DNA of 64,000 nt from NCBI RefSeq assembly GCF_014236855.1, contig NZ_CP051261.1:3534001-3598000 (forward strand), read 5' to 3'. Of the stretch, positions 39,188 to 56,565 are shown in pieces (position 1 is the first letter of the stretch; every line of letters begins with the position of its first letter). A program made the translations under genes and the position numbers. Below the pieces are notes generated by a model. It had not been told where the DNA came from and searched no databases. It saw only the letters and a list, made by a program, of their open reading frames with translations. This stretch comes from Xanthomonas sp. SI. GTDB lineage: Bacteria; Pseudomonadota; Gammaproteobacteria; Xanthomonadales; Xanthomonadaceae.

Positions 39188-41179
39188 TCAGTCGAACTGC
39201 AGCACGAAGCCGCCGCGCGCCGGCAACGACACCTCGACGTTCTGCGTCGGCCCCACTTCGATGCGCCGGCTGGCCAGGCCCAGCGGGCCGTCGCCATCGA
39301 CGATCAGGCGCGCGCCGCGACCGGCCACGCCCAACTCCGCCAGGTTCAGGCGCAGCGTGCGCGGTTGCGCATCGGCGTTGATGCCGGCCACGTACCAGCG
39401 CGCGCCGCCGCGCCGCGCGAACACCGCGAAGCGGCCGGGATAGCCGTCCACGTAGCGGCTGTCGTCCCACACCGAGGGCAGTTCGCGCAGCAGCGCCTGC
39501 ACCTCCGGCGCGGCCTTCTCAAGATTCTCCGGGGTCTCGGCGTAATGCTGGATGCCGGACACGAACAGCACCGTCTCGGCCAGTTCGAAGCCGGGCGTGG
39601 TGCGGCGCTGCACCTTGTCGTTGAGTTTGACCAGGGCCAGCGGGGTGAAGTCCATCGGGTCGAACACGTTGCGCGCGAACGGCAGCATCGCCGCATGCGC
39701 CGGCACCTGGTCGGCGTTGACCTGCTCGAAGGTGGCGAATTCCAGCCCGCGCACCGCCTCCATGGTCATCAGGTCCGGCCAGGTGCGCTGCCAGCCGCGC
39801 GGCAAGGTGGCGCCATGGAAGTTGAGCATCAGCCCGTACGGCGCGGCGTCCTGCATGATGTCCAGGTAGTAGCCGATCATCGACTGCCCGTCGCCGCCGA
39901 AGAAATCGATCTTCACCCCGGCCACGCCCATCGCCTTGAGCCGCGCGAACTCGCGGATGCGGCTGGCGTGGGTCAGCATGCGGTCGCGCGGGGTCTGCGG
40001 CGCTTCGTTCCAGCTGCCGGCCGAGTTGTACCAGAGCAGGATCGACACCTGCTTGCTGTGCGCGTAGGCGATCAGCTCGCGCAGCTTGTCTTCACCGATC
40101 TGCGTGTCCCACAGGGCATCGATCAAGGTGTAGCGCCAGCCCATGCGCGCGGCGAAGTCGATGTAGCGCTTCTGCACTTCGAAGGTCGTAGCGCCGTCGC
40201 CGAGCAGCGGCCAGCTCCACGACGCCTTGCCGGGCTGCGGCGGCGCGATCGGCGCGGCCGCGGGCGGATCGGCCAGGTCGGTGCCGAGCGTGGACTCGGC
40301 GATGGTCTTCAGGCTGCCGACCGCGACGATGCGCCACGGCGAGCGCCACGGCAGCGCGAAGCGCGGATTGGCGGCGCCGCCGGGCAGCACCTCGCGCGGA
40401 TCGGGCATGCCGATCGCGTACTCGCCGGGCGCGTCGGCGACATCGCGCAGGCGGCTGCCGGCGTGGCCGCGGCCGAGCGAACCCTCGCTGAGCAGCACCC
40501 AGTCCGCCTCATGGCGGAACAGGGCCGGATACACCCAGCCGGCCGCGAGCGGCGACGGCGTGCCGACCGTGATGTCCTGCAGGTAGTACTCCTCGTAGGA
40601 AGGATTGGTCCTGCCGAAGCCGGTCTTGGCCGGCGACATCGGCTGCAACCAGGCGCGCGTGGCGGCGGCGAAGCGGAACGTGGTGGCGTCCTCGCGCAGC
40701 TCGCGGATGTTCGGGTCGCGCTGCGGGAAGTCGTAGCGGAACGCGACGCCGTCGTCGGAGACCTGGAATTCGATCTGCAGGCGTTCGCCGTTGGCGCCGC
40801 GCCAGGAGAACACGCGGCGATTGGCGCGGTAGTCGTTGATGCGCCGCTTGCCGGTCAGCAGTTCGTAGCGATCGTGCACCGGCTCGACCGGCGACACCGC
40901 GAGCAGGCGCAGGCCCTTGGAGAAATCGGCATCGTCGCGGACCAGGCCCAGCCGCGAGCGCAACAGCACCTCGCGCCCGTCGCGCAACACGCGGTAGTGC
41001 GCGCTGCCGGCCGCGTCAACGCTCACTTGCGCGTGCAGCGTGGCGTCCGGGCTGAGCACGTCGCCGACCATGCGCTCGGCGGCCAGCGCCGGCAGCGCGC
41101 ACAGCAGCAATGCGCAGGCTGCCGCGATCGCGGCCGAGGCCCTGTACCAGCGGCTCAGAATTGCGGGTTCTTTTCCCAT
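39188..41179 (-). CDS. GH97 glycoside hydrolase, predicted retaining type
   Basis: 663 residues with a Sec signal peptide (about 10-34, ASAAIAAACALLLCALPALAAE). The N-terminal beta-sandwich (35-290) and the catalytic barrel are typical of GH97 (KASWSWPLLGDGATTFEVQKRYIDFAARMGWRYTLIDALWD). Asp425 in MGVAGVKIDFFGGDGQ occupies the nucleophile position of retaining GH97 alpha-galactosidases; inverting SusB-type alpha-glucosidases lack this Asp. Retaining members include alpha-galactosidases and a beta-L-arabinopyranosidase, and the latter would suit this operon. The start overlaps the GH127 stop by 25 bp, with GAGG upstream. It is the last gene of the arabinose operon. Confidence 0.9.
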   Translation of the reverse strand: MGKEPAILSRWYRASAAIAAACALLLCALPALAAERMVGDVLSPDATLHAQVSVDAAGSAHYRVLRDGREVLLRSRLGLVRDDADFSKGLRLLAVSPVEPVHDRYELLTGKRRINDYRANRRVFSWRGANGERLQIEFQVSDDGVAFRYDFPQRDPNIRELREDATTFRFAAATRAWLQPMSPAKTGFGRTNPSYEEYYLQDITVGTPSPLAAGWVYPALFRHEADWVLLSEGSLGRGHAGSRLRDVADAPGEYAIGMPDPREVLPGGAANPRFALPWRSPWRIVAVGSLKTIAESTLGTDLADPPAAAPIAPPQPGKASWSWPLLGDGATTFEVQKRYIDFAARMGWRYTLIDALWDTQIGEDKLRELIAYAHSKQVSILLWYNSAGSWNEAPQTPRDRMLTHASRIREFARLKAMGVAGVKIDFFGGDGQSMIGYYLDIMQDAAPYGLMLNFHGATLPRGWQRTWPDLMTMEAVRGLEFATFEQVNADQVPAHAAMLPFARNVFDPMDFTPLALVKLNDKVQRRTTPGFELAETVLFVSGIQHYAETPENLEKAAPEVQALLRELPSVWDDSRYVDGYPGRFAVFARRGGARWYVAGINADAQPRTLRLNLAELGVAGRGARLIVDGDGPLGLASRRIEVGPTQNVEVSLPARGGFVLQFD

Positions 41180-43110
41180 ACCGGCCTCGCTCGGCAATAG
41201 ACCGCGTAACGCTCGTGGGCGATGCGGTAGAACGGCACCAGGGTCAGCGGGCCCTGCAGTCCGTCGGCCTCGAACACCAGTTCCTGTCCCTCGCGCTTGC
41301 GCGCCCACAGCTGTTCCGGCGCGAAGTAGACCGCCGGCAATTGGCGGCCGACGATCCGGTTCAACGACGGCCGCTGGTCGGACACGTGCAGCTGCGCCGG
41401 GTCGATACCGTCGCTGCCCAGCTGCGCAGCCAGCACCAGCGGACCGTACATCATCGCCTGCAGGCTGGGTTCGTCGGGTAGCGGCGCGGCGTGCAGCGCC
41501 ATCGGCAGGTCCAGTTCGATGCGGTCGCCGTCGGCGAAACGGCGCTCTAGCGAAAGGTAGCTGCCAGGTGTCGCCTTGACCGTCTGCGCCTTGCCGTTGA
41601 TGCGCAGGCGCACGCCCTGGGTGGCCCAGTACGGGATGCGCAGGCGCAGCGTCATCTGCTGCGGTCGCTTGCACTGGAACTCCAGTGCGGTGCCTTCCTG
41701 CTGCGGGAACCGGGTGCGCTGCACGACACGCAGGCCGCGCTCGGCCCAGTCCAGTTGCGAGGCGATGAACAGGTTGACGGTGAGGCCGGCATCGTCGCGA
41801 AAGTAGATGCTGTCGTTGCTCTTGGCGAACTCCTCCACGCCGGTGCCGGTGCAGCACCAGAACGAGGCGAACGGCGTGTTGTAGAGCTTCCAGTAGCCGG
41901 CATCCATCGGCACGAAGTACATCATCATGCCGGCTTCGTCCTGGGTGCCCAGGCGCGCGTTGAACAGCACGCGCTCGTAGTAGTCCATCAGCGCCGCGTC
42001 CGGCTGCCAGGTGTACAGGTGCCGGGTCAGCTTGAGCATGTTGTAGCTGCAGCAGCACTCGTGGCTGTGCCCGCTCAGGCGCCCGGCGAAGTGGTCGGGC
42101 TTGCCGAACATCTCGAAGTCGCTGACGCCGCCGGTGCAATAGGCATGGTGGCCGCTGACCGTGCGCCAGAAGAATTCGGCGATCTGGCGCTGGCGCGGCT
42201 CGCCGTCGATCTCGTAGGCGCGCGCGGCGGCGACGATCTTCGGGATCTGGGTGTTGGCGTGCAGGCCGGCCAGTGCGTCGCGCTGCTGCGCCAGCGGTTC
42301 CAGCAGCGCGGCCTGCTCGTAGCGCGCCGCCCAGCGCTGGTACCTGGCGTCGCCGCTGAGCAGGTACAGCTCCAGCAGCGACTCGTGCACGCCGCCGAAC
42401 TCCACGCCGAGGATGCGTTGCCACTGCGCGTCGTCGAAGCCGTCCATCCACGCGCCCAGCCAGTCGGCGAAGCGCTGCGCGGTGCGCAGCGCCTGCGCGT
42501 TGCCGGCATGGCGGGCCATGTCCAGGTGCCCGGCCAGGATCTTGTGCGCGGTGTAGATCGGCACCCACACCTCCTCGCGGCGGCCGAGCCGGTCGTAGAA
42601 CGAGGACGGGTACGCGCCGATGTAGCCATCCGCACGCTGGCAGCGCGCGAGTTCGGCGACCAGCGCATCGGCCTTGTCCTTCAGCGCGGCATCGCCGGTG
42701 GCCGCGTACAGCAGCGCGCAGGCCGACAGGTAATGACCGCCGGCAAAATGCCCGCGGATCTCGCAGTGCGGCGACTCCCAGCCGCCCAGCGGCTCGGCCT
42801 GCGAGTCCAGGCCCGCGGCTAGCCGGAAATTGTGCAGCAGGCGGTCGTTGGGAATGGACATCAGGTAGCGGCGATCGCGCTCGCGTGCCTGCAGGAACGG
42901 GCCGTCGAGCAGTTGCACCTGGCCCAGCGCGAACGGCTGCTCGCGCAGTTGCACGGCCAGCTGCCGTTTCGCGGCCGCTGCTACCTCCGCAGGCGATGCG
43001 GCCAGCGCCTCGCCTTGCGCCAACAGACCCAGCGCGGCCAGCGAGGCGCCGCCGTAGTGCAGGAAATCGCGCCTTGTGCAGGCCAGGCCCGCCTCTTCAT
43101 ATTCCGTCAT
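41155..43110 (-). CDS. GH127 beta-L-arabinofuranosidase, Tat-exported
   Basis: Releases L-arabinose from beta-L-arabinofuranosides such as those on hydroxyproline-rich plant proteins. 651 residues. CTRRDFLHYGGASLAALGLL is a twin-arginine signal, so the enzyme is probably a folded periplasmic metalloenzyme. The zinc-thiolate active site of HypBA1 (Glu338, Cys340, Cys417, Cys418) is matched by Glu351 and Cys353 in SHECCCSYNMLKL and by Cys419-Cys420 in SFWCCTGTGVEEFAK, one of which is the nucleophile. It overlaps yjfF by 4 bp and GH97 by 25 bp, so it is translationally coupled to a sugar transporter. Confidence 0.92.
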   Translation of the reverse strand: MTEYEEAGLACTRRDFLHYGGASLAALGLLAQGEALAASPAEVAAAAKRQLAVQLREQPFALGQVQLLDGPFLQARERDRRYLMSIPNDRLLHNFRLAAGLDSQAEPLGGWESPHCEIRGHFAGGHYLSACALLYAATGDAALKDKADALVAELARCQRADGYIGAYPSSFYDRLGRREEVWVPIYTAHKILAGHLDMARHAGNAQALRTAQRFADWLGAWMDGFDDAQWQRILGVEFGGVHESLLELYLLSGDARYQRWAARYEQAALLEPLAQQRDALAGLHANTQIPKIVAAARAYEIDGEPRQRQIAEFFWRTVSGHHAYCTGGVSDFEMFGKPDHFAGRLSGHSHECCCSYNMLKLTRHLYTWQPDAALMDYYERVLFNARLGTQDEAGMMMYFVPMDAGYWKLYNTPFASFWCCTGTGVEEFAKSNDSIYFRDDAGLTVNLFIASQLDWAERGLRVVQRTRFPQQEGTALEFQCKRPQQMTLRLRIPYWATQGVRLRINGKAQTVKATPGSYLSLERRFADGDRIELDLPMALHAAPLPDEPSLQAMMYGPLVLAAQLGSDGIDPAQLHVSDQRPSLNRIVGRQLPAVYFAPEQLWARKREGQELVFEADGLQGPLTLVPFYRIAHERYAVYCRARPVWEKNPQF

Positions 43111-44135
43111 GCGTCCGCTCCCGAATCCGGCGTGCGCCGGGTCAACACGCGTTGCAGAAGGCAGAACACCAGCAGCAGCGCGCCGATCACGATGCGCGTC
43201 CACCACGAGCTGAGCGTGCCGTCGAACACGATCAGGGTCTGGATCACGCCCAGGATCAGCACGCCGAACAGCGTGCCGATCACGTAGCCGCTGCCGCCGG
43301 CCAGCAAGGTGCCACCGATCACCACCGCGGCGATCGCATCCAGTTCCAGGCCCAGCGCATGCAGGCTGTAGCCGGACAGCATGTAGAACGTGCACACCAC
43401 CCCGGCCAGCGCCGAGCAGAATCCGCTGAAGGCGTAGACCTTGACCTGGGTGGCGGCCACCGGCAGGCCCATCAGCCGCGCCGAGGCCTCGCTGCCGCCC
43501 AGCGCATACACGCAGCGGCCGAAGCGCGTGCTGTGCGCCAGCCACATGCCCAGCGCCACCGTGGCCAGCGCGATCAGTGCGCCGATCGACAGCGAGGCGC
43601 CGGCGCCGATCGGCACGCGGAACTGGGCGATGGCCACGTACAGCGCATCGTCGATCGGAATCGAATCGACGCTGATCAGGTAGCTGGCGCCGCGCGCCAG
43701 GAACATGCCGGCCAGGGTCACCACGAACGGCTGCAGCCGGTAGCGCTGGATCAGCATGCCCATGAACGCGCCGAACAGCGCCCCGAGCAGCAACACCAGC
43801 GGGATCGCCGCCAGCGGCGACCAGCCATGGTGCTGCACCAGCGACGCCGACAGCACCGTGGTGAAAGCGATCACCGCGCCCACCGACAGGTCGATGCCGC
43901 CGCTCAGGATCACGAACGTCATGCCGACCGCGGCGATGCACAGGAAGGCATTGTCGATCAGCAGATTGGCGAACACCTGCGGCGACAGGAAGCCATCGTA
44001 GAGCACGCCGCCGGCGCCGGCCATGGCCACGAACAGGGCTACGGTGATCGCCAGCGGCAGGCGCGCGCCGTGCAGCAGCGTGCCGACGCGGCGCAGGCCG
44101 CGCGCGTTCTGGATCGGGACGCCGGCCGCGCTCAT
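43107..44135 (-). CDS. yjfF: Sugar ABC transporter permease, YjfF-like
   Basis: 342 residues, about nine membrane helices, BPD_transp_2 (RbsC-like) family. Signatures: NAFLCIAAVGMTFVILSGGIDLSVGAVIAFTTVLSA, LQPFVVTLAGMFLARGASYLIS and AIAAVVIGGTLLAGGSGYVIGTLFGVLILGVIQTLI. It pairs with YtfT to form the channel of a YtfQRT-YjfF-type importer, known for galactofuranose in E. coli and for L-arabinose in Shewanella (AraUVWZ). Four-bp ATGA overlaps on both sides show tight coupling. Arabinose as substrate follows from the linked pathway genes. Confidence 0.92.
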   Translation of the reverse strand: MSAAGVPIQNARGLRRVGTLLHGARLPLAITVALFVAMAGAGGVLYDGFLSPQVFANLLIDNAFLCIAAVGMTFVILSGGIDLSVGAVIAFTTVLSASLVQHHGWSPLAAIPLVLLLGALFGAFMGMLIQRYRLQPFVVTLAGMFLARGASYLISVDSIPIDDALYVAIAQFRVPIGAGASLSIGALIALATVALGMWLAHSTRFGRCVYALGGSEASARLMGLPVAATQVKVYAFSGFCSALAGVVCTFYMLSGYSLHALGLELDAIAAVVIGGTLLAGGSGYVIGTLFGVLILGVIQTLIVFDGTLSSWWTRIVIGALLLVFCLLQRVLTRRTPDSGADA

Positions 44136-45187
44136 CGCCGTGCTCCCGGCTCGGCACGCCGCACCCAGCCGCGCACGCTGGCGCGGAACTGCGGCGACTG
44201 CAGCAGCATCACCGCGAACACCAGCAGCGCCTTGATCAGCATGTTGACCTGCGCCGGCACGCCGATGGCGTAGATGGTCGCGGTCAGGGTCTGGATGATC
44301 AGCGCGCCGATCAGGCTGCCGGCCAGGCTGAAGCGGCCGCCGTCGAGCAGCGTGCCGCCGAGGGTGACCGCCAGGATCGCGTCCAACTCCATCAGCTGGC
44401 CGGCGTTGTTGGCATCGGCGCTCTTGACGTTGGAACTGATCAGCAGCCCGGCCAGGCCGGCGCTGAACGCGCAGAACACGTACAGCAGCACCGCGATCAG
44501 CCGCGCCTTGATCCCGGCCACGCGCGCCGCGCGCGGGTTGTGCCCGATCGCGCGCACGAACAGGCCCAGCGCGGTGCGCCCGAGCAGCAACTGCAACACC
44601 GCGAACACCGCGGCGACCACGAACAGCGCGAACGGCAGGCCGAGCAGGAAGCCGTTGCCCAGATAGAAATACGGCGGGTAGTAGATGGTCAGGATCTGGC
44701 CGTCGCCGATCAGCTGGGCCACGCCGCGCCCGGCCACCATCAGGATCAGCGTGGCGATGATCGGCTGCATGCCGACCTTGACCACCAGCAACCCGTTCCA
44801 CAGTCCGCACGCAGCGGCGACCAGCAGCGGCGCCACGATCACCGCCCACAGCGGGAAGCGGCTGTGCTCGCCGCCGCCGATCATCCACGCCGCCACCGTT
44901 GCGGCGATCGCCACCACCGCGCCGACCGAGATGTCCAGGCCGCGCACCGCGATCACCAGGGTCATGCCCAGCGCGACCAGCGCCAGCGGCGCGGCGCGGT
45001 TGCCGATGTCCACCAGGTTGCCGTACAGGTGCCCGTCGCGCCATTGCAGCGCCAGGAAGCCGGGATTCCACAGGCCGTTGCCGAGCAGCAGCAGCGCCAG
45101 CGTGGCCAGCGGCCAGAACAGCGGGTGGGCGACGATGCGCGCCGGCAGCCGCGGCGCGCTCGGCGATGACGTGGCCGCCGCGCTCAT
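44132..45187 (-). CDS. ytfT: Sugar ABC transporter permease, YtfT-like
   Basis: 351 residues, about nine to ten membrane helices, same family as YjfF. Signatures: AAPLALVALGMTLVIAVRGLDISVGAVVAIAATVAAWMIGG, GMQPIIATLILMVAGRGVAQLI with the following DGQILTIYYPPYFYLGNG typical of YtfT, and ELDAILAVTLGGTLLDGGRFSLAGSLIGALIIQTL. It overlaps ytfR and yjfF by 4 bp each. Confidence 0.92.
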   Translation of the reverse strand: MSAAATSSPSAPRLPARIVAHPLFWPLATLALLLLGNGLWNPGFLALQWRDGHLYGNLVDIGNRAAPLALVALGMTLVIAVRGLDISVGAVVAIAATVAAWMIGGGEHSRFPLWAVIVAPLLVAAACGLWNGLLVVKVGMQPIIATLILMVAGRGVAQLIGDGQILTIYYPPYFYLGNGFLLGLPFALFVVAAVFAVLQLLLGRTALGLFVRAIGHNPRAARVAGIKARLIAVLLYVFCAFSAGLAGLLISSNVKSADANNAGQLMELDAILAVTLGGTLLDGGRFSLAGSLIGALIIQTLTATIYAIGVPAQVNMLIKALLVFAVMLLQSPQFRASVRGWVRRAEPGARR

Positions 45188-46698
45188 GCCGCCGCGCTCC
45201 CGGCGATCATCTCGAATACCGCGCGCTCGCCGCAGCCGCCCGGCAGTTCGCCGACCAGGCGGCGTTCGCGCAGCACCGCGATGCGGTCGGCGATACGCTC
45301 GATCTCGGCGACCTCGGCGGAAATGAACAGCACCGCCATGCCTTCGCGGGCCAGCGCCAGGATGCGGGTCATGATGTCCTGCTTGGCGGCGATGTCGATG
45401 CCGCGGGTGGGTTCGTCGAGGATCAGCAGCCGCGGCCGCGTCGCCAGCCAGCGCGCCAGCACCACTTTCTGCTGGTTGCCGCCGGACAGCAGCCCGACCG
45501 GGGTTTCCACGCTGGCGGTCTTGATGCCCAGCGCGTCCACGTAGCCCTGCGCGATGCGCAGCTGTTCGGCCAGCGGCAGGAACCGGCGCAGGCCCATGCG
45601 CGCCTGCAGCGCCAGCACGATGTTCTCGCGCACCGACAGCTCGGCGACGATGCCGTCGGTCTTGCGCTCTTCCGGACACAGCGCCAGGCCGTGGCGGATC
45701 GCGTCGGGCGGGCCGCGCAGCGCCACTTCATTGCCGTCGATGGACACGCGGCCGCAATCGGCGCGGTCCAGGCCGAACAGCAGCCGCGCCAGCTCGGTGC
45801 GGCCGGCGCCGAGCAGGCCGGCCAGGCCCAGCACCTGGCCACGGCGCAGTTGCAAATCGATCGGGTGCAACTGGCCGCGCCGGCCCAGGCCCTGTGCCTG
45901 CAGCAGCACCGGCGCGTCTTCGGTCGGCACGGCGTCCACCGTCGCGGCGGCCGCGGCGGCCACGTCCAGTTCGCGCCCGACCATCGCCGCGATCAGCCGC
46001 GGCGCCGGCAGGTCCGCGGCCAGGTATTCGCCGACCAGGCGCCCGTTGCGCAGCACGCTGATGCGGTCGGACACCGCATACACCTGGTCGAGAAAATGGG
46101 TCACGAACAGGATCGCCATGCCCTGCTCGCGCAGGCCACGCATCACCCGGAACAGTTCGGCGACCTCGCCTTCGTCGAGGCTGGAGGTGGGTTCGTCGAG
46201 AATCAGCACCCGCGCCGACACGCTCAGCGCGCGCGCGATCGCCACCATCTGCTGCACCGCCACCGGATAGGCGGACAGCGCGCGGCGCACGTCGATGTCC
46301 ACGCCCAGCCGCTGCAGGCACTCACGCGCCTCGCGTTCGACCCGGTGCCAGTCGATGCGCCGCGGCCAGCCCTTCAACGGATAGCGGCCGGCGAAGATGT
46401 TCTCGGCCACCGACAGGTTCGGGCACAGGTTCACTTCCTGGTACACGGTGCTGATGCCCAGCTGCTGCGCCTGCAGCGGCGAGCTCGGCGCGATCGCGTC
46501 GCCGCCCAGCGCCATGCGCCCGGCATCGGCGGCGACCGCACCGGTCAGCAGCTTGATCAGGGTGGATTTGCCGGCGCCGTTCTGGCCCATCAGCGCGTGG
46601 ATCTCGCCGCCGCGCAGGCACAGCGCCACGTCGTCCAGCGCGGCGACGCCGGCGTAGGCCTTGCTCAGTCCCTGCGCGTGCAGCACCACCGGCTTCAT
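45184..46698 (-). CDS. ytfR: Sugar ABC transporter ATPase, YtfR-like (two nucleotide-binding domains)
   Basis: 504 residues with two fused ATPase domains, as in the RbsA/MglA class. The first has Walker A GQNGAGKST (38-46), LSAYPVAVQQMVAIARAL as signature and LILDEPTSSLD as Walker B. The second has the degenerate Walker A GLLGAGRTEL usual for this family, with LSGGNQQKVVLARWLATRPRLLILDEPTRGID. It drives import by the YtfT/YjfF channel. It starts 12 bp after ytfQ. Confidence 0.95.
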   Translation of the reverse strand: MKPVVLHAQGLSKAYAGVAALDDVALCLRGGEIHALMGQNGAGKSTLIKLLTGAVAADAGRMALGGDAIAPSSPLQAQQLGISTVYQEVNLCPNLSVAENIFAGRYPLKGWPRRIDWHRVEREARECLQRLGVDIDVRRALSAYPVAVQQMVAIARALSVSARVLILDEPTSSLDEGEVAELFRVMRGLREQGMAILFVTHFLDQVYAVSDRISVLRNGRLVGEYLAADLPAPRLIAAMVGRELDVAAAAAATVDAVPTEDAPVLLQAQGLGRRGQLHPIDLQLRRGQVLGLAGLLGAGRTELARLLFGLDRADCGRVSIDGNEVALRGPPDAIRHGLALCPEERKTDGIVAELSVRENIVLALQARMGLRRFLPLAEQLRIAQGYVDALGIKTASVETPVGLLSGGNQQKVVLARWLATRPRLLILDEPTRGIDIAAKQDIMTRILALAREGMAVLFISAEVAEIERIADRIAVLRERRLVGELPGGCGERAVFEMIAGSAAA

Positions 46699-46710
46699 CG
46701 GCAGGCTCCG

Positions 46711-47703
46711 TCAGTACTTGCGCTTGGGCAGCTCGGCGGCGGCCTGCTCCTGGGTGTACACCGATTCCTCGACCACGATGCGCTTGGGCAGCGGCTTGCC
46801 GGCCTTGGCGTCGCGGATCGCCTGCACCAGCTGCGGGCCGAGCAGCGGATTGCATTCCACGGTGACGTTGAGCTTGCCGGCCTGCATCGCCTCGAACGCG
46901 CCCTTCACCCCGTCGATGGAGATCACCAGGATGTCCTTGCCCGGCTTCAGCCCGGCTTCCTCGATCGCCTGGATCGCGCCGATCGCCATATCGTCGTTGT
47001 GCGCGTACAGCACGTCGATGTTGCGCCCTTCCGACTTCAGGAACGCCTCCATCACTTCCTTGCCCTTGGCGCGGGTGAAGTCGCCGCTCTGCGAGCGCAC
47101 CACCTGGAAGCGCGGGTTGGCCGCGATGATTTCCTTGAAGCCCTTCATGCGGTCGATCGCCGGTGCCGAACCCACGGTGCCCTGCAGCTCGACGATGCGC
47201 ACCGGCTTGTCGCCGTCCTTCAGCGGCGACTGCTCGAGCAGCCAGCGCCCGGCCTTGCGCCCTTCCTCGACGAAGTCCGAGCCGATCAGTGTGGTGTACA
47301 GGCTGTCGTCGGACACCTTGACCGCGCGGTCGGTCAGCACCACCGGGATGTTCGCCGTCTTGGCTTCGCGCAGCACGGTTTCCCAGCCGGATTCGACCAC
47401 CGGCGAGAACGCGATCACGTCCACGCGCTGGGCGATGAACGAGCGCAGCGCCTTGATCTGGTTTTCCTGTTTCTGCTGCGCGTCGGAGAACTTCAGCTTC
47501 ATCCCCGCCTGCTCGATCGCCTGCTTGACCGAGGCGGTATTGGCAGTGCGCCACTCGCTCTCGGCGCCGACCTGGCTGAAGCCGACCGTGATCTGGCCCG
47601 ACTTGCCGGCCGCGTCCTTGCCGCCGCCGGAACACGCGCTCAACGCCGCACCCAGCAGTACCGCCATTCCCAGCACCGCCGCACGCACACCTGACTTCTG
47701 CAT
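46711..47703 (-). CDS. ytfQ: Periplasmic sugar-binding lipoprotein, YtfQ-like
   Basis: 330 residues, type I periplasmic binding fold (ribose/galactofuranose class). Lipobox LSACSGGG suggests membrane anchoring. Family sequence: ITVGFSQVGAESEWRTANTASVKQAIEQAGMKLKFSDAQQKQENQIKALRSFIAQRVDVIAFSPVVESGWETVLREAKTANIPVVLTDRAV, then VLYAHNDDMAIGAIQAIEEAGLKPGKDILVISIDGVKGAF. It supplies the YtfR/YtfT/YjfF importer. A strong GAGGAGGGG ribosome site is present. A 97-bp gap to the aldehyde dehydrogenase gene allows an internal promoter, though I see none clearly. Confidence 0.94.
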   Translation of the reverse strand: MQKSGVRAAVLGMAVLLGAALSACSGGGKDAAGKSGQITVGFSQVGAESEWRTANTASVKQAIEQAGMKLKFSDAQQKQENQIKALRSFIAQRVDVIAFSPVVESGWETVLREAKTANIPVVLTDRAVKVSDDSLYTTLIGSDFVEEGRKAGRWLLEQSPLKDGDKPVRIVELQGTVGSAPAIDRMKGFKEIIAANPRFQVVRSQSGDFTRAKGKEVMEAFLKSEGRNIDVLYAHNDDMAIGAIQAIEEAGLKPGKDILVISIDGVKGAFEAMQAGKLNVTVECNPLLGPQLVQAIRDAKAGKPLPKRIVVEESVYTQEQAAAELPKRKY

Positions 47704-47800
47704 AACCCCTCCTCGTTCGTTGCACGCTGGCGGTCGCGCGGCGTTCGTGCCGCGGCGGCCGCCCACCCTCCCAGGCAGGCGCGCGAATGGATCGATCAAT

Positions 47801-49240
47801 TCATCCCGCGAATGTATAGGCCGTCTTGACCGTCGTATAGAACTCCACCGCATAGCGGCCCTGCTCGCGCGGGCCGTAGCTGGAGGCCTTGCGCCCGCCG
47901 AACGGCACGTGCGGATCGACCCCGGCGGTGGGCAGGTTGACCATCACCATGCCGGCCTGCGCATGCCGCTTGAAATGCGTGGCGTGCTTCAGCGAGCGCG
48001 TGGCGATGCCGGCGCACAGGCCGAATTCGGTATCGTTGGCCAGCGCCAGCGCGTGTTCGTAATCGTCGGCCGGCATCACCGCCGCAACCGGGCCGAACAC
48101 TTCCTCGCGCGCGATGCGGTGCTGCGGCTGCGCGGCGATCAGCGCCGGGCGCATGTAGTGGCCCTGGTGCTCGCATTCCAGCGCCTCGCCGCCGTACACC
48201 AGCTCGGCGCCTTCTTTCTGGGCGATACGCACGTAGTCGCGGTCCTGCGCGAACTGGCTGGCGCTGGCGACCGGGCCGATGTCGATGCCGGGGGTCAGCG
48301 CATGGCCGATCTTCAGCGTGGCCAGGCGCTTGCTGACCCGCGCGACGAACTCGTCGTATACCGCACGCTCTACGATCAAGCGGCTGGAGGCGGTGCAACG
48401 CTGGCCGGTGGAGAAGTACGCGCCGTTGACCGCGATCTCCACCGCCAGGTCCAGGTCGGCATCGGCCAGCACCACCAGCGGATTCTTGCCGCCCATTTCC
48501 AGCTGGATCTTCAGCCCGCGCGCGGCGGCCTGCTTGAGCAGATGGTTGCCGGTGGGCACCGAGCCGGTGAAGCTCAACGCATCGATGCCGGGGTCCTCGA
48601 CCAGCGCCTGGCCGACGGTGCGGCCGCTGCCGATCACCAGGTTGAACGCGCCGCTGGGCAGGCCGGCGCGGCTGAGGATTTCGGCCAGCGCCCAGGCACA
48701 GCCGGGCACGATCTCGGCCGGCTTGAACACCACGGTGTTGCCGTAGGCCAGCGCCGGGGCGATCTTCCACGCCGGGATCGCCAGCGGGAAATTCCACGGC
48801 GCGATGATACCGACCGTGCCGACCGGCTCGCGGGTGATCTCCACGTCCACGCCGGGGCGGGTGGAGGCGAGCTTTTCGCCGGGAATGCGCAGCGCCTCGC
48901 CGGCGAAGAACTTGAAGATCTGCCCGGCGCGCGCGGCCTCGCCGATGCTCTCCGGCAGGGTCTTGCCTTCTTCGGACGCCAGCAGCGTGCCCAGCTCCTG
49001 CTTGCGCGCCAGGATCTCGCTGCCGACGAAGTCCAGCGCGTCGGCGCGCTGCTGCGGCGTGCTCGCCGCCCACTTGGCCTGCGCCGCGTTGGCCGCGGCG
49101 ATCGCGCCGCGCACCGCGTCGGCATCGACGCTGCCGACCTCGCCGACCGGCGCGGACAGGTCGGACGGATTCTCGTCCGCCGCGAGGTCGCCGCCGGCCA
49201 GCCACTGCCCGTCGATATAGCTCTGGAAACGCTGACTCAT
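47801..49240 (-). CDS. Aldehyde dehydrogenase, probable alpha-ketoglutarate semialdehyde dehydrogenase
   Basis: 479 residues of the NAD(P)+-dependent ALDH superfamily. In the oxidative L-arabinose pathway this step converts 2,5-dioxopentanoate to alpha-ketoglutarate. The catalytic Cys282 lies in GAYFSTGQRCTASSR and the general base Glu248 in IQLEMGGKNPLVVLADAD. The cofactor-binding segments are IIAPWNFPLAIPAWKIAPALAYGNTVVFKPAE and ALSFTGSVPTGNHL. The C-terminal VMVNLPTAGVDPHVPFGGRKASSYGPREQG matches the alpha-ketoglutarate semialdehyde dehydrogenase group. It is 19 bp downstream of araD1. Confidence 0.9.
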   Translation of the reverse strand: MSQRFQSYIDGQWLAGGDLAADENPSDLSAPVGEVGSVDADAVRGAIAAANAAQAKWAASTPQQRADALDFVGSEILARKQELGTLLASEEGKTLPESIGEAARAGQIFKFFAGEALRIPGEKLASTRPGVDVEITREPVGTVGIIAPWNFPLAIPAWKIAPALAYGNTVVFKPAEIVPGCAWALAEILSRAGLPSGAFNLVIGSGRTVGQALVEDPGIDALSFTGSVPTGNHLLKQAAARGLKIQLEMGGKNPLVVLADADLDLAVEIAVNGAYFSTGQRCTASSRLIVERAVYDEFVARVSKRLATLKIGHALTPGIDIGPVASASQFAQDRDYVRIAQKEGAELVYGGEALECEHQGHYMRPALIAAQPQHRIAREEVFGPVAAVMPADDYEHALALANDTEFGLCAGIATRSLKHATHFKRHAQAGMVMVNLPTAGVDPHVPFGGRKASSYGPREQGRYAVEFYTTVKTAYTFAG

Positions 49241-49259
49241 GTCGTCCTCCCTTGCTCGG

Positions 49260-50267
49260 TTACAGCGCGCGCACGCCGCCCAGTTCGAACCCGGCCGACA
49301 CCCGCTGCAGCGGATTGACCAGCGCCGCGCCCAGTTCCGGCAGTTCGATCTCGAAGCGGTCGCCCGGCTCGGCCTGCACGCCGTCGGCGAAGCTCAGCGT
49401 GGCGGTGCCGAAGAAATGCAGGTGCACGTCGCCGGGCACGCGATGCGCGGCGTACTTGAAGTGGTGGTATTCCAGGTTGGCCAGCGAGTGGCACATGTTG
49501 GCCTCGCCAGTGACGAAGGGTTTTTCCCAGATCACCGCATCGCCGCGGCGGATGCGGCTGCTGCCGCGCAGGTCGCGCGGCAGTTCGCCGCTGCGCAGCT
49601 CCGGCCCCACCGCGCAGGCGCGCAGCTTGGAATGGGCCAGGTACAGATAGTTCTGGCGTTCGGTGACGTGGTCGGAGAACTCGTTGCCGAGCGCGAAGCC
49701 GAGCCGGTACGGCACCCCATCGGCGCCGATCACGTACAGCCCGACCAGTTCCGGCTCCTCGCCGCCGTCCAGCGCGAAGTCCGGCGACGGCAACGGCGCG
49801 CCCGGCGCGACCAGGATGCTGCCGTCGCCCTTGTAGAACCATTCCGGCTGCGCGCCGGGCTGGCCGTCGCGCGGGATGCCGCCTTCCACGCCGAGCTGGA
49901 AGATCTTCATCGAATCGGTGAGCGTGCCCTGGTCGGCCTGCTGCTGCAGGTTCTGGTGCATCGCGTCGCGGGTGGCGGCGCTGCCCAGGTGGGTCAGGCC
50001 GGTGCCGGTGACGCGGCAGTGCGCCGGGTCCGGGTGGGTCAGCGGCGACAGCACGCGGTGGTTGGCCAACAGTTCGGCATAGTCGAGCACGATGTCGCCG
50101 AGCTGATGCGTGGCGTAGTCGTCCAGGCCGAGGCCGGCGGCGAGCGCGGCGTTGGCCAGCGCATAGGTCGAACCGACTTCGCGCAGCAGGCGCACCTGGG
50201 TGCCGTTCGCCTCTACGGCGCCCACGCTGGGGATGCCGGACTCGTCGAGCAGTTGGATCAATCGCAT
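49260..50267 (-). CDS. araD1: FAH-family 2-keto-3-deoxy-L-arabonate dehydratase (AraD1/GguC type)
   Basis: 335 residues of the fumarylacetoacetate hydrolase superfamily, GguC/AraD1 group. It is predicted to dehydrate 2-keto-3-deoxy-L-arabonate to alpha-ketoglutarate semialdehyde. Metal-binding acidic residues are in EPELVGLYVIGADGVPYRLGFALGNEFSDHVTERQNYLYLAHSKLRACAVGPEL. The C-terminal part EYHHFKYAAHRVPGDVHLHFFGTATLSFADGV is typical. It is the first gene of the eight-gene operon and is divergent from the LysR regulator, with the ACAAATATC element between them. GguC was first described beside the ChvE sugar importer genes of Agrobacterium. Confidence 0.85.
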   Translation of the reverse strand: MRLIQLLDESGIPSVGAVEANGTQVRLLREVGSTYALANAALAAGLGLDDYATHQLGDIVLDYAELLANHRVLSPLTHPDPAHCRVTGTGLTHLGSAATRDAMHQNLQQQADQGTLTDSMKIFQLGVEGGIPRDGQPGAQPEWFYKGDGSILVAPGAPLPSPDFALDGGEEPELVGLYVIGADGVPYRLGFALGNEFSDHVTERQNYLYLAHSKLRACAVGPELRSGELPRDLRGSSRIRRGDAVIWEKPFVTGEANMCHSLANLEYHHFKYAAHRVPGDVHLHFFGTATLSFADGVQAEPGDRFEIELPELGAALVNPLQRVSAGFELGGVRAL

Positions 50268-50364
50268 GAATCGGTCGCCTGTCGGAATACGAAAGAGCGG
50301 CGCGGCAGCACAGACCGCCGGTGCCGCGGATGCGGTTCTATTCTGGCCGGATGACCTATATGCA

Positions 50365-50373
50365 ACAAATATC
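50365..50373. promoter_or_regulatory. ACAAATATC operator half-site, araD1/LysR divergent region
   Basis: CCTATATG-CA-ACAAATATC sits in an AT-rich stretch (about 50350-50405) between the divergent araD1 and LysR genes. The same TATATG..AACAAATATC string begins the operator at 52515. An AATGT-N6-ACATT dyad lies at 50386-50401 and may be the partner site. Confidence 0.6.
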
Positions 50374-50418
50374 GTTTTTGGCTTAATGTATACGAACATT
50401 CATATGCATTGGGCCGCC

Positions 50419-51420
50419 ATGCCTGCCGCCACGCCCTGGTTCGTCCGCGCCCGCCTGAAGACCCGGCAGCTGATGCTGCTGCTGGCGATCGAGGAGGAAG
50501 GCAACATCCACCGCGCCGCCGAGACCTTGAACATGTCGCAGCCGGCCGCGTCCAAGCTGCTCAAGGACCTGGAGGACATGATGGAGGTGCCGCTGTTCGA
50601 ACGCCTGCCGCGCGGCATGCGCCCGACCTGGTATGGCGAGGCGATGATCCGCCACGCGCGCATCGCCCTGTCCAGCCTGGGCGAGGCCGGCGCCGAGATC
50701 GAGGCGCTGAAGGCCGGCTATTTCGGCAGCGTCAGCGTCGGCGCCATCGCCGGGCCGGCGATGACCCTGCTGCCGGCCGCGCTGGCCCAGGTCACCGAAC
50801 AGCATCCGCTGCTGCGCGTGGCGCTGCGCGTTGACGGCAGCGACGTGCTGCTGGAGCAACTGGCGCAGAACAAGCTCGACATCGTGGTGGCGCGGCTGTT
50901 CGCGCGCCACGACAAGCGCAACCTGCACTACCAGGCGCTGGCCGAGGAAGAGGTGTGCGCCATCGCCCGTCCCGGCCACCCGATCCTGGCAATGCCGCAA
51001 CCGGCGCTGCGCGAACTGGCCGCGACCGGCTGGATCGTGCCGCCGGACGGCAGCGTGCTGCGCCATCGCTTCGAGTTGATGTTCCAGAACGCCGGGCTGG
51101 AGCCGCCGAAGCGGGTGGTGGAGACCTCGGCGTTGGTGGTGCTGCCGCAGCTGCTGCGCCAAAGCGACTACCTGGCGGTGGTGCCGATGGACGTGGCCAG
51201 GCATTTCGCCGACCACGGCAGCGTGGCGATCGTGCCGGTGGAACTGTCGTGCCGGATGGACGCGTTCGGCATCATCACCCGCACCGACTGGCTGCTGTCG
51301 CCGGGCGCGCGAATCATGCTGGAGGCGCTGCAGGCCGCGGCCGGGCCGGTGTACGGCTACGTCGCGCCGGCAGAGGAAGCGCCGGCACCGGCGGATGCGG
51401 ACGCGCCAACCGAAGGATGA
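50419..51420 (+). CDS. LysR regulator of the arabinose cluster (GbpR/GguR-like)
   Basis: 333 residues from ATG 50419 (MPAATPWF); an in-frame ATG at 50404 is also possible. The HTH is RLKTRQLMLLLAIEEEGNIHRAAETLNMSQPAASKLLKDLEDMMEVPLFERLPRGMRPTWYGE, and the effector domain starts VSVGAIAGPAMTLLPAALAQVTEQHPLLRVALRVDGSDVLLEQLAQNKLDIVVARL. This matches the GbpR/GguR group of LysR regulators that control sugar binding protein and sugar-acid genes in Azospirillum, Agrobacterium and Burkholderia. It is divergent from araD1 and probably regulates both that operon and the SDR/dehydratase pair. Confidence 0.92.
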   Translation: MPAATPWFVRARLKTRQLMLLLAIEEEGNIHRAAETLNMSQPAASKLLKDLEDMMEVPLFERLPRGMRPTWYGEAMIRHARIALSSLGEAGAEIEALKAGYFGSVSVGAIAGPAMTLLPAALAQVTEQHPLLRVALRVDGSDVLLEQLAQNKLDIVVARLFARHDKRNLHYQALAEEEVCAIARPGHPILAMPQPALRELAATGWIVPPDGSVLRHRFELMFQNAGLEPPKRVVETSALVVLPQLLRQSDYLAVVPMDVARHFADHGSVAIVPVELSCRMDAFGIITRTDWLLSPGARIMLEALQAAAGPVYGYVAPAEEAPAPADADAPTEG

Positions 51421-51421
51421 G

Positions 51422-51670
51422 GTCGGGGCTGAAGCCCCTCCTACAGTGCACCCAGACAGCTTGCCGCAAGCCCCTGTAGGAGCGGCTTCAGCCGCGACCG
51501 AACGCAGCGGCAAGCATTCCGTCTTCGGTCACCATCGGGGCTGAAGCCCCTCCCACAGTGCACCCAGCCGGCTCGCCGCAAGTCCTGTAGGAGCGGCTTC
51601 AGCCGCGACCGAACGCAGCGGTCAACATTCCGCCTGCGGACACCGTCGGGGCCGAAGCCCCTCCTACCCG
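51422..51670. repeat. REP array with a 112-bp period
   Basis: TCGGGGC(T/C)GAAGCCCC elements at 51423, 51535 and 51646 alternate with inverted GCGGCTTCAGCCGC elements beginning near 51475 and 51590. The spacers are alike, and the 111-112-bp period matches the array at 13967. It lies between the LysR gene and the convergent SDR gene. Confidence 0.93.
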
Positions 51671-51689
51671 ACGGCAATGCATCCGCCGC

Positions 51690-52487
51690 TCAGGTCCAGC
51701 CCGCATCCACCACGAATTCCTGCGCGGTGATCGCGCGCGACTCGTCCGAGGCCAGGAACAGCGCCATGCGCGCGATGTCTTCCGGCATCACCTTGTCCGG
51801 CAGGCACTGGTTGCGCGCCAGTTCGCGCTCGCCGGCCTCGTCCAGCCACAGCGTGACCTGGCGCTCGGTCATCACCCAACCCGGGGTCAGCACGTTGACC
51901 CGGATCCGCGCCGCGCCCAGTTCGCGCGCCAGGCCACGGGTCAGCCCGTTCACCGACGACTTGGCGGTGGCGTAGACCGGATAGCCGCCGGTCTTGGTCT
52001 GCCAGCCGGTGGAACCGAGGTTGACGATCGAACCGCCACCGAGCCGCTTCATGCCCGGCACCAGCGCCTGGATCGCGAAGAACGCGGCGCGCTGATTGAT
52101 CGCCACGCAGCGCTCCCAGTACTCCGGGGTCACCGCGTCCAGCGCGTGGCGGTCGTCGCTGCCGACGTTGTTGAGCAGCACATGGAAATCGCCCAGCTCG
52201 GCGGCGGCCTCGCCCAGCGCCGCCTGCAGCGCGGCCACGTCGGTGACGTCGCAGCGGCGCCACCACGGCCTGGCCAGGCCGGCCGCGGCCAGGCGCTCGG
52301 CCAACGCTTCGCTGGCCTCGGCGGCCACGTCGACGAAGGCGACCTGCGCGCCCTGCCCGGCGAAGGCCTCGACCAGCGCCGCGCCGATGCCCGACCCGCC
52401 GCCGGTGATGAAGACCCGGCGCCCGTGCAGGCTGCCGTAGGTTGCGTTGCCGGTGCCGGGAGACGCCGCGCTTGCCGTGTTGTCCAT
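51690..52487 (-). CDS. SDR sugar 1-dehydrogenase (L-arabinose/D-galactose type)
   Basis: 265 residues of the classical short-chain dehydrogenase family. The cofactor motif is VFITGGGSGIGAALVEAF with VAFVDV favouring NAD+, then LLNNVG and the catalytic Ser in NLGSTGWQTK, Tyr172 and Lys176 in YPVYATAKSS. The C-terminal PGWVMTERQVTLWLDE is seen in sugar dehydrogenases. The neighbouring sugar-acid dehydratase makes oxidation of L-arabinose (or D-galactose) to its lactone the likely reaction. Divergent from that dehydratase across a 56-bp dyad operator. Confidence 0.88.
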   Translation of the reverse strand: MDNTASAASPGTGNATYGSLHGRRVFITGGGSGIGAALVEAFAGQGAQVAFVDVAAEASEALAERLAAAGLARPWWRRCDVTDVAALQAALGEAAAELGDFHVLLNNVGSDDRHALDAVTPEYWERCVAINQRAAFFAIQALVPGMKRLGGGSIVNLGSTGWQTKTGGYPVYATAKSSVNGLTRGLARELGAARIRVNVLTPGWVMTERQVTLWLDEAGERELARNQCLPDKVMPEDIARMALFLASDESRAITAQEFVVDAGWT

Positions 52488-52514
52488 GCCGTTTCGCTCT
52501 AGGTGGATGAGATT

Positions 52515-52570
52515 TTGATATATGAAAACAAATATCCATAGTCAGATATTTGTTATTTTTCATGTATCAA
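52515..52570. promoter_or_regulatory. Large inverted-repeat operator between SDR and dehydratase genes
   Basis: TTGATATATGAAA-ACAAATATC and the reverse complement of GATATTTGT-TATTTTTCATGTATCAA face each other with an 8-bp spacer; the inner ACAAATATC / GATATTTGT arms (52528-52536, 52545-52553) are exact. The outer TTGATA(T/C)ATGAAA arms also match. It is AT-rich in a very GC-rich region. It shares its half-site with 50365-50373. Confidence 0.75.
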
Positions 52571-52661
52571 TATGCCCGCTAGCATCGCCGACGTAAAGCA
52601 CCCCGGGCGACGCCGCGCAGGCACCGATCCGGGCCGATCAGGTCTCGAGGATTCCGCCAGC

Positions 52662-54386
52662 ATGGGCTCACCCACCAAACCGGTCCGCCGCAGCCAGGCG
52701 TGGTTCGGTCGCGAAGGCAAGCAGGGTTTCTACTACCGCAGCTGGCTCAAGAGCGCCGGCCATCCGCACGACATGTTCGACGGGCGCCCCGTGATCGGCA
52801 TCTGCAACACCTGGTCGGAACTGACCCCGTGCAACGGCCACCTGCGCGAGCTGGCCGAGCACGTCAAACGCGGCGTCTACGAGGCCGGCGGCTTCCCGCT
52901 GGAATTCCCGGTGATGTCGCTGGGCGAGACGCAGATGCTGCCCACCGCCATGCTGTTCCGCAATCTGGCCAGCATGGACGTGGAGGAATCGATCCGCGCC
53001 AATCCGCTGGACGGCGTGGTGCTGCTGATGGGCTGCGACAAGACCACCCCGTCGCTGCTGATGGGCGCGGCCAGCGTGGACCTGCCGACGATCGGTTTAT
53101 CCGGCGGCCCGTCGCTGTCCGGCAACTGGCGCGGGCAGCCGCTGGGTTCGGGCACCGGGGTGATCCAGATGTCGGAGATGGTCCGCGCCGGCACCCTGAG
53201 CCAGGACGAGTTCGTCGAGGCCGAGGCCTGCATGCAGCGCTCCAAGGGCAGCTGCATGACCATGGGCACCGCCTCGACGATGGCCAGCATGGTCGAGGCG
53301 CTGGGCATCTCGCTGCCGGAAAACGCGGCGATCCCGGCGGTGGATTCGCGCCGCGCGCGGCTGGCGCGACTCAGCGGCCGGCGCATCGTACAGATGGTCG
53401 AGGACGACCTGCGCATGTCGCAGGTGCTGACCCGCTCCGCGTTCGCCAACGCGATCAAGGTCAATGCGGCGATCGGCGGCTCCACCAATGCGGTGATCCA
53501 CCTGCTGGCGATCGCCGGGCGCCTGGGCGTGCCGCTGAGCCTGGACGATTGGGACCAGTTGGGATCGCGGCTGCCGTGCCTGGTCAACCTGAAACCGTCC
53601 GGCCAGTACCTGATGGAAGATTTCTACTACGCCGGCGGATTGCCGGCGGTGATGCGCGAACTCGGCGCCGAACTGGAACTGGACGCGCTCACCGTCAACG
53701 GCCGCACCCTGGGCGAGAACGTGGCCGACGCGCCGTGCTGGAACCGCGAGGTGATCCATGCGCTGGACACGCCGTTCCGCGAACAGGCCGGCATCGCCGT
53801 GCTGCGCGGCAACCTGGCCCCGGACGGCGCGGTGATCAAGCCTTCCGCGGCATCCCCGCACCTGTTGCGGCACCGCGGCCGCGCGGTGGTGTTCGAAAGC
53901 ATCGAGGACATGAAGGCGCGCATCGACGACGAGGCGCTGGACATCGACGCCGACTGCATCATGGTGCTGAAGAACTGCGGCCCGCGCGGTTACCCCGGCA
54001 TGGCCGAGGTCGGCAACATGCCGCTGCCGCCGAAGCTGCTGCGCGCCGGCGTCACCGACATGGTGCGCATCTCCGATGCGCGCATGAGCGGCACCGCCTA
54101 CGGCACCGTGGTCCTGCACGCCTCGCCCGAGGCCGCCACCGGCGGCACCCTGGCGCTGGTGCGCGACGGCGACATCATCGAACTGGACGTGCCCGGGCGC
54201 TCGCTGCACCTGGAGGTCAGCGACGAGGAACTGCTGCGCCGGCGCAGCGAATGGACCCCGCTGCCGACGCCGCTGCGCGGCTGGAGCAAGCTGTACGTGG
54301 AGCACGTGCAGCAGGCGCACCTGGGCGCGGACCTGGATTTCCTGGTCAGCGGCAGCGGCGCCGACGTGGCGCGCGATTCGCATTAG
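52662..54386 (+). CDS. IlvD/Edd family dehydratase, probable L-arabonate dehydratase
   Basis: 574 residues from ATG 52662 (MGSPTKPVRRSQAWFG); an in-frame ATG at 52572 would add 30 non-conserved residues almost at the operator edge. Converts L-arabonate (possibly also D-galactonate or D-fuconate) to the 2-keto-3-deoxy acid. The three [2Fe-2S] ligands fit Cys57 (ICNTWSELTPCN), Cys125 (LLMGCDKTTPS) and Cys198 (SKGSCMTMGTAST), with the same spacing as Cys59, Cys127 and Cys200 of the Rhizobium enzyme. The active-site region ISDARMSGTAYGTVVLHASPEA is conserved. Divergent from the SDR gene. Confidence 0.92.
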   Translation: MGSPTKPVRRSQAWFGREGKQGFYYRSWLKSAGHPHDMFDGRPVIGICNTWSELTPCNGHLRELAEHVKRGVYEAGGFPLEFPVMSLGETQMLPTAMLFRNLASMDVEESIRANPLDGVVLLMGCDKTTPSLLMGAASVDLPTIGLSGGPSLSGNWRGQPLGSGTGVIQMSEMVRAGTLSQDEFVEAEACMQRSKGSCMTMGTASTMASMVEALGISLPENAAIPAVDSRRARLARLSGRRIVQMVEDDLRMSQVLTRSAFANAIKVNAAIGGSTNAVIHLLAIAGRLGVPLSLDDWDQLGSRLPCLVNLKPSGQYLMEDFYYAGGLPAVMRELGAELELDALTVNGRTLGENVADAPCWNREVIHALDTPFREQAGIAVLRGNLAPDGAVIKPSAASPHLLRHRGRAVVFESIEDMKARIDDEALDIDADCIMVLKNCGPRGYPGMAEVGNMPLPPKLLRAGVTDMVRISDARMSGTAYGTVVLHASPEAATGGTLALVRDGDIIELDVPGRSLHLEVSDEELLRRRSEWTPLPTPLRGWSKLYVEHVQQAHLGADLDFLVSGSGADVARDSH

Positions 54387-54469: not shown

Positions 54470-54609
54470 CCAGGCATTCAATGCGGCCATGGCCGCATGC
54501 AATCGGCGTCCTGCACGAAAGCCCTGCACAGGACCGGATACGCGCCGCGTCACCGAAACGTCATCGACCGCCTCTAGCCTGCGCCGCATCCAAGGGGCAA
54601 GGCAGGTCG

Positions 54610-56210: not shown

Positions 56211-56344
56211 TCGAGGCCTCGGTCGCCGACCGCGGCGACCGATTCCCGCGCGCATGGCGAGATCGGTGCGCAACCGCGAGTGCCGCGGCACCACGCCCGC
56301 AGGCGCACCACGCATCACCGCCTAGCGCGCATCCAGTCATGCCA

Positions 56345-56391
56345 CGAGCGTTCGTTCGTTCGCTCGCTCGCACGCGCACGCGCACGCGCGC
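56345..56391 (+). repeat. Simple-sequence tract (GTTC/GCTC/ACGCGC repeats)
   Basis: Short tandem runs, (GTTC)3, (GCTC)2 and (ACGCGC)n, in the 355-bp gap between fecR and the receptor gene, upstream of the TGTC-N8-TTCATCGAA element. Slippage here would alter promoter-distal spacing without touching a coding frame. Confidence 0.7.
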
Positions 56392-56434
56392 AACCAGATG
56401 AGAAAGCAGCGGCTCGCCCTCGCCTCCTCGCACG

Positions 56435-56455: not shown

Positions 56456-56565
56456 AACCGGTGCCCGATCGTCGCTGTCGATCCTCGTAGTCCAGGTACA
56501 ACGCAGCATTTCGCCCTTCGCGGCGGCGCTGCGTCCCCACCTTCCGCTCCCACTGGACAACGACG

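Follow-up and report, generated by a model that had tools for sequence, protein, structure and literature searches.

A candidate L-arabinose utilisation regulon with GH146 and GH97 glycosidases, a Gaf-type importer and oxidative-route genes in Xanthomonas sp. SI

Four described systems come closest to the gene row studied here, a putative L-arabinose operon with its neighbouring regulator and enzyme genes, located in a 64,000-nucleotide window of the Xanthomonas sp. SI genome (positions 3534001–3598000 of 5.25 Mb; positions below follow window numbering). The GafABCD clusters described by Drousiotis et al. (2023; PMC10191376), for example in Shewanella sp. ANA-3 and Acidovorax citrulli AAC00-1, unite a Gaf importer with secreted arabinofuranosidases and sometimes with an oxidative L-arabinose route, and the same authors propose that uptake of the furanose follows its release. 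In Xanthomonas euvesicatoria, the xehypBA1 and xehypBA2-AA genes (Nakamura et al., 2018; PMC6085000) are comparable in providing a Xanthomonas β-L-arabinofuranosidase of the PF07944 type. In Bifidobacterium longum, the HypAA-HypBA2-HypBA1 glycosidases for β-L-arabinofuranosides are accompanied by a dedicated ATP-binding cassette (ABC) importer for β-Ara2 (PMC7263609). As for the catabolic part, the FAH-type L-2-keto-3-deoxyarabonate (L-KDP) dehydratases of Herbaspirillum and Paraburkholderia (Watanabe group; PMC6336799) represent the non-phosphorylative L-arabinose route, a likeness drawn by family and not by sequence.

We are fairly confident that the Xanthomonas region is an L-arabinose utilisation regulon comprising glycosidases, a Gaf importer and the oxidative route, probably under the control of a LysR-type regulator whose gene stands between the two units.

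Gene order, candidate route and shared promoter motifs

We found eight minus-strand genes in a row from 50267 to 39188, and family searches and coordinates confirmed the place and strand that an earlier sequence-only reading had given to the named genes. The first gene (49260..50267) encodes an AraD1/GguC-family protein of the FAH type, a candidate L-KDP dehydratase (NF040903, 516.9 bits, cut-off 340), followed after 19 bp by a candidate α-ketoglutaric semialdehyde dehydrogenase (KGSADH; 47801..49240; PF00171, 519.8 bits; top NCBIfam model NF042993 at 491.9 bits, missing the cut-off of 770). After a further 97 bp comes a GafA/YtfQ-type sugar-binding protein with a lipobox-like signal peptide (LSAC) (46711..47703; NF041827, 389.9 bits, cut-off 510), the start of which is most likely 47703, the longer open reading frame (ORF) from 47853 being a mechanical start. 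A YtfR-type ABC ATPase follows after 12 bp (45184..46698; NF041861, 629.6 bits, cut-off 850; runner-up AraG, 477), and is overlapped by 4 bp by a YtfT-type permease (44132..45187; NF041862, 313.9 bits, cut-off 535), which is itself overlapped by 4 bp by a YjfF-type permease (43107..44135; NF008630, 477.9 bits, above the cut-off of 363). The row ends with a PF07944/PF20736 glycosidase (41155..43110), overlapping YjfF by 4 bp, and a GH97 glycosidase (39188..41179; PF10566/PF14508/PF14509), overlapping its predecessor by 25 bp. The coupling by 4- and 25-bp overlaps put forward by the sequence-only reading is hence exact at both glycosidase junctions, but gaps of 12–97 bp separate AraD1, KGSADH, the binding protein and YtfR. 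The eight genes may be read as one transcript.

The same reading had let this operon cover the catabolism of the sugar, which was too wide a claim: candidates for two of the five steps lie inside it, and two more are encoded by the adjacent SDR/IlvD pair, so that the locus offers candidates for the dehydrogenase, the dehydratase, AraD1 and KGSADH. Divergent from AraD1 lies the gene of the LysR-type regulator (50419..51420, plus strand; PF03466 and PF00126, the match beginning at ORF residue 89), for which ATG 50419 is the likely start and 50200 the mechanical one. Beyond it, and divergent from each other, are the genes of an SDR dehydrogenase, a candidate L-arabinose 1-dehydrogenase (51690..52487, minus strand; NF053674, D-xylose 1-dehydrogenase, 314 bits, missing the cut-off of 400), and of an IlvD/EDD-family dehydratase, a candidate L-arabonate dehydratase (52572..54386, plus strand; NF004784 passed at 927 bits; NF009559, L-arabinonate dehydratase, 861.5 bits, cut-off 882).

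AraD1 and KGSADH fit the pentose route that forms α-ketoglutarate. A family search of the genome for the arabinose isomerase AraA (PF02610) gave no match, and the control search finds AraA in 5 of 14 genomes. The best-scoring match to SMP-30 lactonases in the genome lies in a separate locus (L091; G000:C1:2626000-2636000), where its neighbours are a dehydratase of the enolase family, a KDPG-type aldolase and a LysR protein 44% identical to that of the window. We read this locus as a probable De Ley-Doudoroff galactose cluster and a possible source of the lactonase; galactose thus probably has its own oxidative route, which favours a pentose for the window locus. Taken with the importer family, known to handle L-arabinofuranose (PMC10191376), these observations make L-arabinose, already named as the common sugar by the sequence-only reading, the most likely substrate. 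No match to AraD1 was obtained in the PDB. L-KDP dehydratases of the FAH type, including one that acts strictly on L-KDP, were demonstrated in 2019 (PMC6336799), and we tentatively link the window AraD1 to the assayed C785_RS13710.

The proposed route would run as follows. Exported in folded form by the Tat pathway, the PF07944 glycosidase, assigned below to GH146, would free β-linked L-arabinofuranose from plant glycan fragments in the periplasm, where the retaining GH97 enzyme may remove β-L-arabinopyranose and/or α-galactose. The Gaf-type ABC importer, formed by the binding protein, YtfR, YtfT and YjfF, would bring in the furanose form. Inside the cell, L-arabinose would be oxidised by the SDR enzyme, the lactone opened by a lactonase encoded elsewhere and L-arabonate dehydrated by the IlvD-type enzyme; AraD1 would then form α-ketoglutaric semialdehyde, and KGSADH would turn it into α-ketoglutarate.

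The two units appear to share a promoter motif. Between LysR and AraD1, a putative operator (50358..50405) consists of GATATTTGTTGCATAT (50358–50373, minus strand) and the near-palindrome ATACGAACATTCATAT (50390–50405), although the palindrome pattern of the latter, with one mismatch, is shown by 3 of 100 shuffles too. A second putative operator lies between SDR and IlvD (52512..52573) and is made up of the inverted repeat AACAAATATC-N8-GATATTTGTT and a 17-nt outer repeat; GATATTTGTTATTTTT, one arm of this inverted repeat, is the counterpart of the GATATTTGTTGCATAT motif. With up to two mismatches, the GATATTTGTTGCATAT pattern occurs at three sites in 5.25 Mb, two of them in the locus, and the backward control at one. 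In a genus group of 20 genomes (own included), GATATTTGTTG[CT]ATAT was found upstream of AraD1 in 20/20 regions from 19 genomes, and GATATTTG[TC]TA between SDR and IlvD in 16 of the 17 scorable regions (20 loci), its relaxed form in all 17. That one motif is common to both promoter regions and conserved in the genus group supports one regulon of two units. We infer the targets and inducer of the adjacent LysR protein, which would bind the shared motif sites; GguR was dropped as a name for it, since GguR in PMC5507952 is a GntR-family regulator of galactarate/glucarate genes.

Two further scans were not used as evidence. A sigma-70 scan yielded two promoter-like sites (0.8 in shuffles, sd 0.8), a minus-strand site inside YtfR and a plus-strand site between SDR and IlvD; no terminator was recognised after GH97, the two terminator-like sites (5.9 in shuffles) both being on the plus strand. 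Between LysR and SDR, the stretch 51401–51690 contains repeated palindromic GGGGCTGAAGCCCC elements.

Properties of the glycosidases and the importer

The seventh gene of the row had been assigned to GH127, which is not borne out by a search of PDB sequences: the PF07944 protein scores 364.9 bits with 5opj and 192.9 with 8k7y, versus 81.2 and 48.9 with the GH127 structures 4qjy and 3wkw. We therefore rejected membership in GH127 of the HypBA1/Geobacillus type and place the protein in GH146. The genome encodes three PF07944 proteins, including one of the GH127 type, with inverse scores (4qjy 802 bits, 5opj 77.8), and a second GH146-like one (450 bits to 5opj). We take 5opj to be BT0349. This agrees with the W162 of PMC10850190 within two residues, and 8k7y is treated as Bll3HypBA1, the residue numbers fitting those in that paper at an offset of 378. 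In the alignment, the Zn ligands E351, C353, C419 and C420, the nucleophile C419 and the acid/base E333 are conserved (E723, C725, C804, C805 and E694 of Bll3HypBA1, in the order E351, C353, C419, C420, E333). Trp182 occupies the linkage position, where 5opj also has Trp and the β-1,3-specific Bll3HypBA1 has Ile522. By these residues the protein is a candidate β-L-arabinofuranosidase, and L-arabinose is the sugar freed by the GH146 members studied in PMC10850190. The Xanthomonas extensin enzyme XeHypBA1, the xehypBA1 product assigned to family 127 in PMC6085000, belongs to GH146 too according to PMC10850190, and the family label thus falls from the earlier statement that GH127 loci in Xanthomonas serve extensin glycans.

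The GH146 protein begins with a Tat-like TRRDFL motif. Among 120 relatives listed of 7975 matches, 94 have a Tat-like RRx[FLM] within the first 45 residues, compared with 0/120 in a control stretch, which suggests folding and Zn loading before export. Tat-like signals in the GH146 group would suit a Zn/cysteine active site that reaches the periplasm folded.

The GH97 protein carries a hydrophobic N-terminal signal and gave 426 bits with 5xfm_A in the PDB search, the next chain being 3a24 with 147. We assume that 5xfm is BT3661, a β-L-arabinopyranosidase/α-galactosidase; the PDB table names the chain an α-glucosidase. The Asp in VKIDFFGGD aligns with an Asp of 3a24 and a Gly of 5e1q, and the Glu in MTMEAV is aligned as well, so that both catalytic residues of the retaining GH97 subgroup, the nucleophilic Asp and the acid/base Glu, are present. 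Retaining GH97 enzymes use that Asp (PMC10086023).

As for the importer, the subunit families named by the sequence-only reading (YtfQRT-YjfF) proved right and can be refined to the Gaf type. Each subunit has its best score with the corresponding model (YtfQ, YtfR, YtfT or YjfF), YjfF alone passing the cut-off, and the binding protein scores 357 bits with 6hbd (Mycobacterium smegmatis GafA), 331 with 5ocp (Shewanella GafA) and 310 with 2vk2 (Escherichia coli YtfQ). According to Drousiotis et al. (2023), Shewanella GafA binds L-arabinofuranose and not D-galactose, whereas M. smegmatis GafA was crystallised with L-arabinofuranose and with D-galactofuranose, a difference possibly accounted for by Phe40 beside Asp110. 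In the window protein, Asp125 corresponds to Asp110 and Asn55 stands at the Phe40 position, as in M. smegmatis GafA. The Asn was found in all 29 loci compared (20 genus-group loci, own included, plus 9 more), and the Asp is kept. A strictly arabinose-specific importer of the GafASw type is accordingly not supported; the binding protein is predicted to take both L-arabinofuranose and D-galactofuranose. All 29 loci also have ESEWR, in which the pocket Trp is preceded by Glu; the five solved Gaf chains in the alignment show ESGWR, with Gly in its place.

Drousiotis et al. (2023) raised, and left open, the idea that bacteria capture the furanose as it leaves the glycosidase, ahead of its conversion. 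A furanose relay of this kind, in which a Tat-exported GH146 is co-translated with the permease, L-arabinofuranose is imported before turning pyranose and oxidised as furanose (1,4-lactone), and the Glu of ESEWR is a new selectivity device, is an idea that we advance only tentatively. The overlap of a furanosidase gene with a Gaf permease gene, and the existence of relatives with and without it, make the idea testable.

Distribution in relatives and alternative readings

The synteny survey advised by the sequence-only reading bore out the wider arrangement in part: AraD1 is present in 19/20 genus-group genomes and a close GH146 (90–100% identity) in 10/20, but the junction with GH97 is a local variation on it. 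Close GH97 genes occur in 9/20 genomes, intact in 8, and the 25-bp overlap in 7/20, for which reason we rejected a fixed GH146-GH97 fusion. Among the ten loci with a close GH146, the 4-bp overlap with YjfF is kept in nine and the 25-bp overlap with GH97 in seven. Of the carriers that have a name, Xanthomonas sp. AmX2 and X. bonasiae FX4 stand nearest, together with a protein cluster containing Xanthomonas sp. WHRI 7945. In FX4 (L054 4890-8670), GH146 and GH97 are separated by an MFS_2 symporter and a GH43 gene, and directly upstream of GH97 the 3′ end of GH146 is repeated as a short copy, which looks like a recombination footprint. AmX2 has the symporter and GH43, and its sole GH97 is 32% identical and located elsewhere. 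The G208 genome carries the AraD1-to-YjfF block twice; after one copy (L062) come GH146 and a broken GH97, after the other (L063) they do not. In 2 of the 19 genomes (L064 and L065 in G198 and G170, of 3.5–3.7 Mb), no KGSADH gene was detected in the interval from AraD1 to the binding protein, which leaves these loci without the last pathway enzyme.

In other genera, the order AraD1, KGSADH, Gaf, GH146, symporter, GH43 was observed in Pseudoxanthomonas sangjuensis, Luteimonas suaedae and Solimonas marina, and a Lysobacterales metagenome-assembled genome has YtfT, YjfF and GH146 on a contig that starts there. The YjfF/GH146 spacings are −8 (L026), −4 (L028), +17 (L029) and −4 bp (L027). Since Gaf followed by GH146 recurs in all four at 61–73% GH146 identity, that junction is old. 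Four of ten loci (Acidobacteria, Terriglobia; GH146 50–52% identical) showed no other window genes in the stretch examined. In a family sample of 198 genomes (own included), GH146-like proteins (E <= 1e-60) occur in 25/26 AraD1-bearing genomes versus 9/172 others, and in 13 of the 26 a GH146-like gene and AraD1 share a contig and lie at most 30 kb apart, on either strand.

Several points weigh against an L-arabinose regulon. Of the eight operon genes, AraD1 and YjfF alone pass the equivalog cut-offs of NCBIfam. The locus holds no lactonase, the four SMP-30 matches of the genome all lying outside the window. The pyranose that GH97 would yield must change its ring form before a furanose importer can take it, and Asn in place of Phe at the selectivity position leads one to expect binding of D-galactofuranose too. 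A third, weaker GATATTTGTTGCATAT site lies at 4.79 Mb, where tblastn with the operon proteins detected nothing. A close GH146 is missing from 9 of the 19 AraD1-bearing genus-group genomes, from which it follows that the AraD1 route does not need it. Finally, the co-occurrence of GH146 and AraD1, when counted by genus (10/10 versus 2/44), allows for kinship through that count alone.

Among the alternatives, two transcripts survive best, with a promoter in the gap between KGSADH and the binding protein that would split the catabolic genes from the transporter and glycosidases. The gap measures 97–99 bp in 18/18 KGSADH-bearing genus-group loci (17 genomes) and its sequence is partly conserved. 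Yet no sigma-70-like site was seen in it by a scan of sigma-70 only, nor does it contain the shared motif, whose two sites in the locus are upstream of AraD1 and in the SDR/IlvD interval; we regard this division as unlikely.

Rather improbable, in our judgement, is that the glycosidases are passengers joined by deletion or recombination and serving another purpose, e.g., the trimming of host glycoproteins, beside a general arabinose system of import and oxidation genes independent of them. The AraD1 loci lacking a close GH146 would fit this, as would the genes inserted in FX4 with the duplicated GH146 end before GH97, the broken GH97 of G208 and the G186 genome, which has only a 32%-identical GH97 elsewhere. 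The recurrence of the Gaf-GH146 order across genera speaks against it. GH97 alone may be such a passenger.

A locus for galactose/galactofuranose, with GH97 as α-galactosidase, an importer of D-galactofuranose and promiscuous pathway enzymes, is very doubtful: NCBIfam names the importer subunits for galactofuranose, GH97 also matches retaining α-galactosidases (NF053844, 190 bits, cut-off 800) and the binding-site Asn is that of the M. smegmatis protein binding both sugars (PMC10191376), but KGSADH and the FAH-type L-KDP dehydratase fit a pentose over a hexose, the genome has the separate L091 cluster and the characterised GH146 enzymes release L-arabinose (PMC10850190).

Next to the L-arabinose locus, the plus-strand stretch 54481–60916 encodes consecutively an ECF sigma factor, a FecR-type anti-sigma factor, a TonB-dependent receptor and a histidine-acid phosphatase/phytase-like protein, a row that looks like a surface-signalling cassette coupled to phytase.

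Comparison with known systems

The L-arabinose regulon proposed here would provide a candidate oxidative route in a plant-associated genus. The sequence-only reading had regarded the coupling of a non-phosphorylative pathway and GH97 to such loci as a different arrangement. In that form the claim is too broad, because clusters of a Gaf importer with secreted arabinofuranosidases and, in part of them, the oxidative route are already on record in PMC10191376 and the GH97 junction is confined to a minority of the genus group; the combination of GH146 and GH97 does look new. Full-text searches limited to one literature collection found no GH146 joined to a Gaf importer, nor GH97 with either.

The GafABCD clusters in PMC10191376 include arabinases and L-arabinofuranosidases (abfB as α) and belong to AraR-type regulons, whereas the window has GH146 (β) and GH97, an overlapped permease gene and a LysR-type regulator beside them; the words GH127 and Xanthomonas are absent from the main text of that paper. 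The X. euvesicatoria route (PMC6085000) acts on hydroxyproline-rich glycoproteins through GH121 and an enzyme of the GH43 type, with xehypBA2-AA regulated by HrpX, and the word transporter is absent from its main text. In turn, B. longum imports the disaccharide and cleaves it with the intracellular GH127 enzyme HypBA1 (PMC7263609), in contrast to the export of GH146 and import of the monosaccharide that we propose for the window. The Herbaspirillum/Paraburkholderia route is described with no coupling to glycosidases in the parts of PMC6336799 covered, and the window has such coupling. Each component of the Xanthomonas locus is of a known kind, and their combination looks like a new arrangement.

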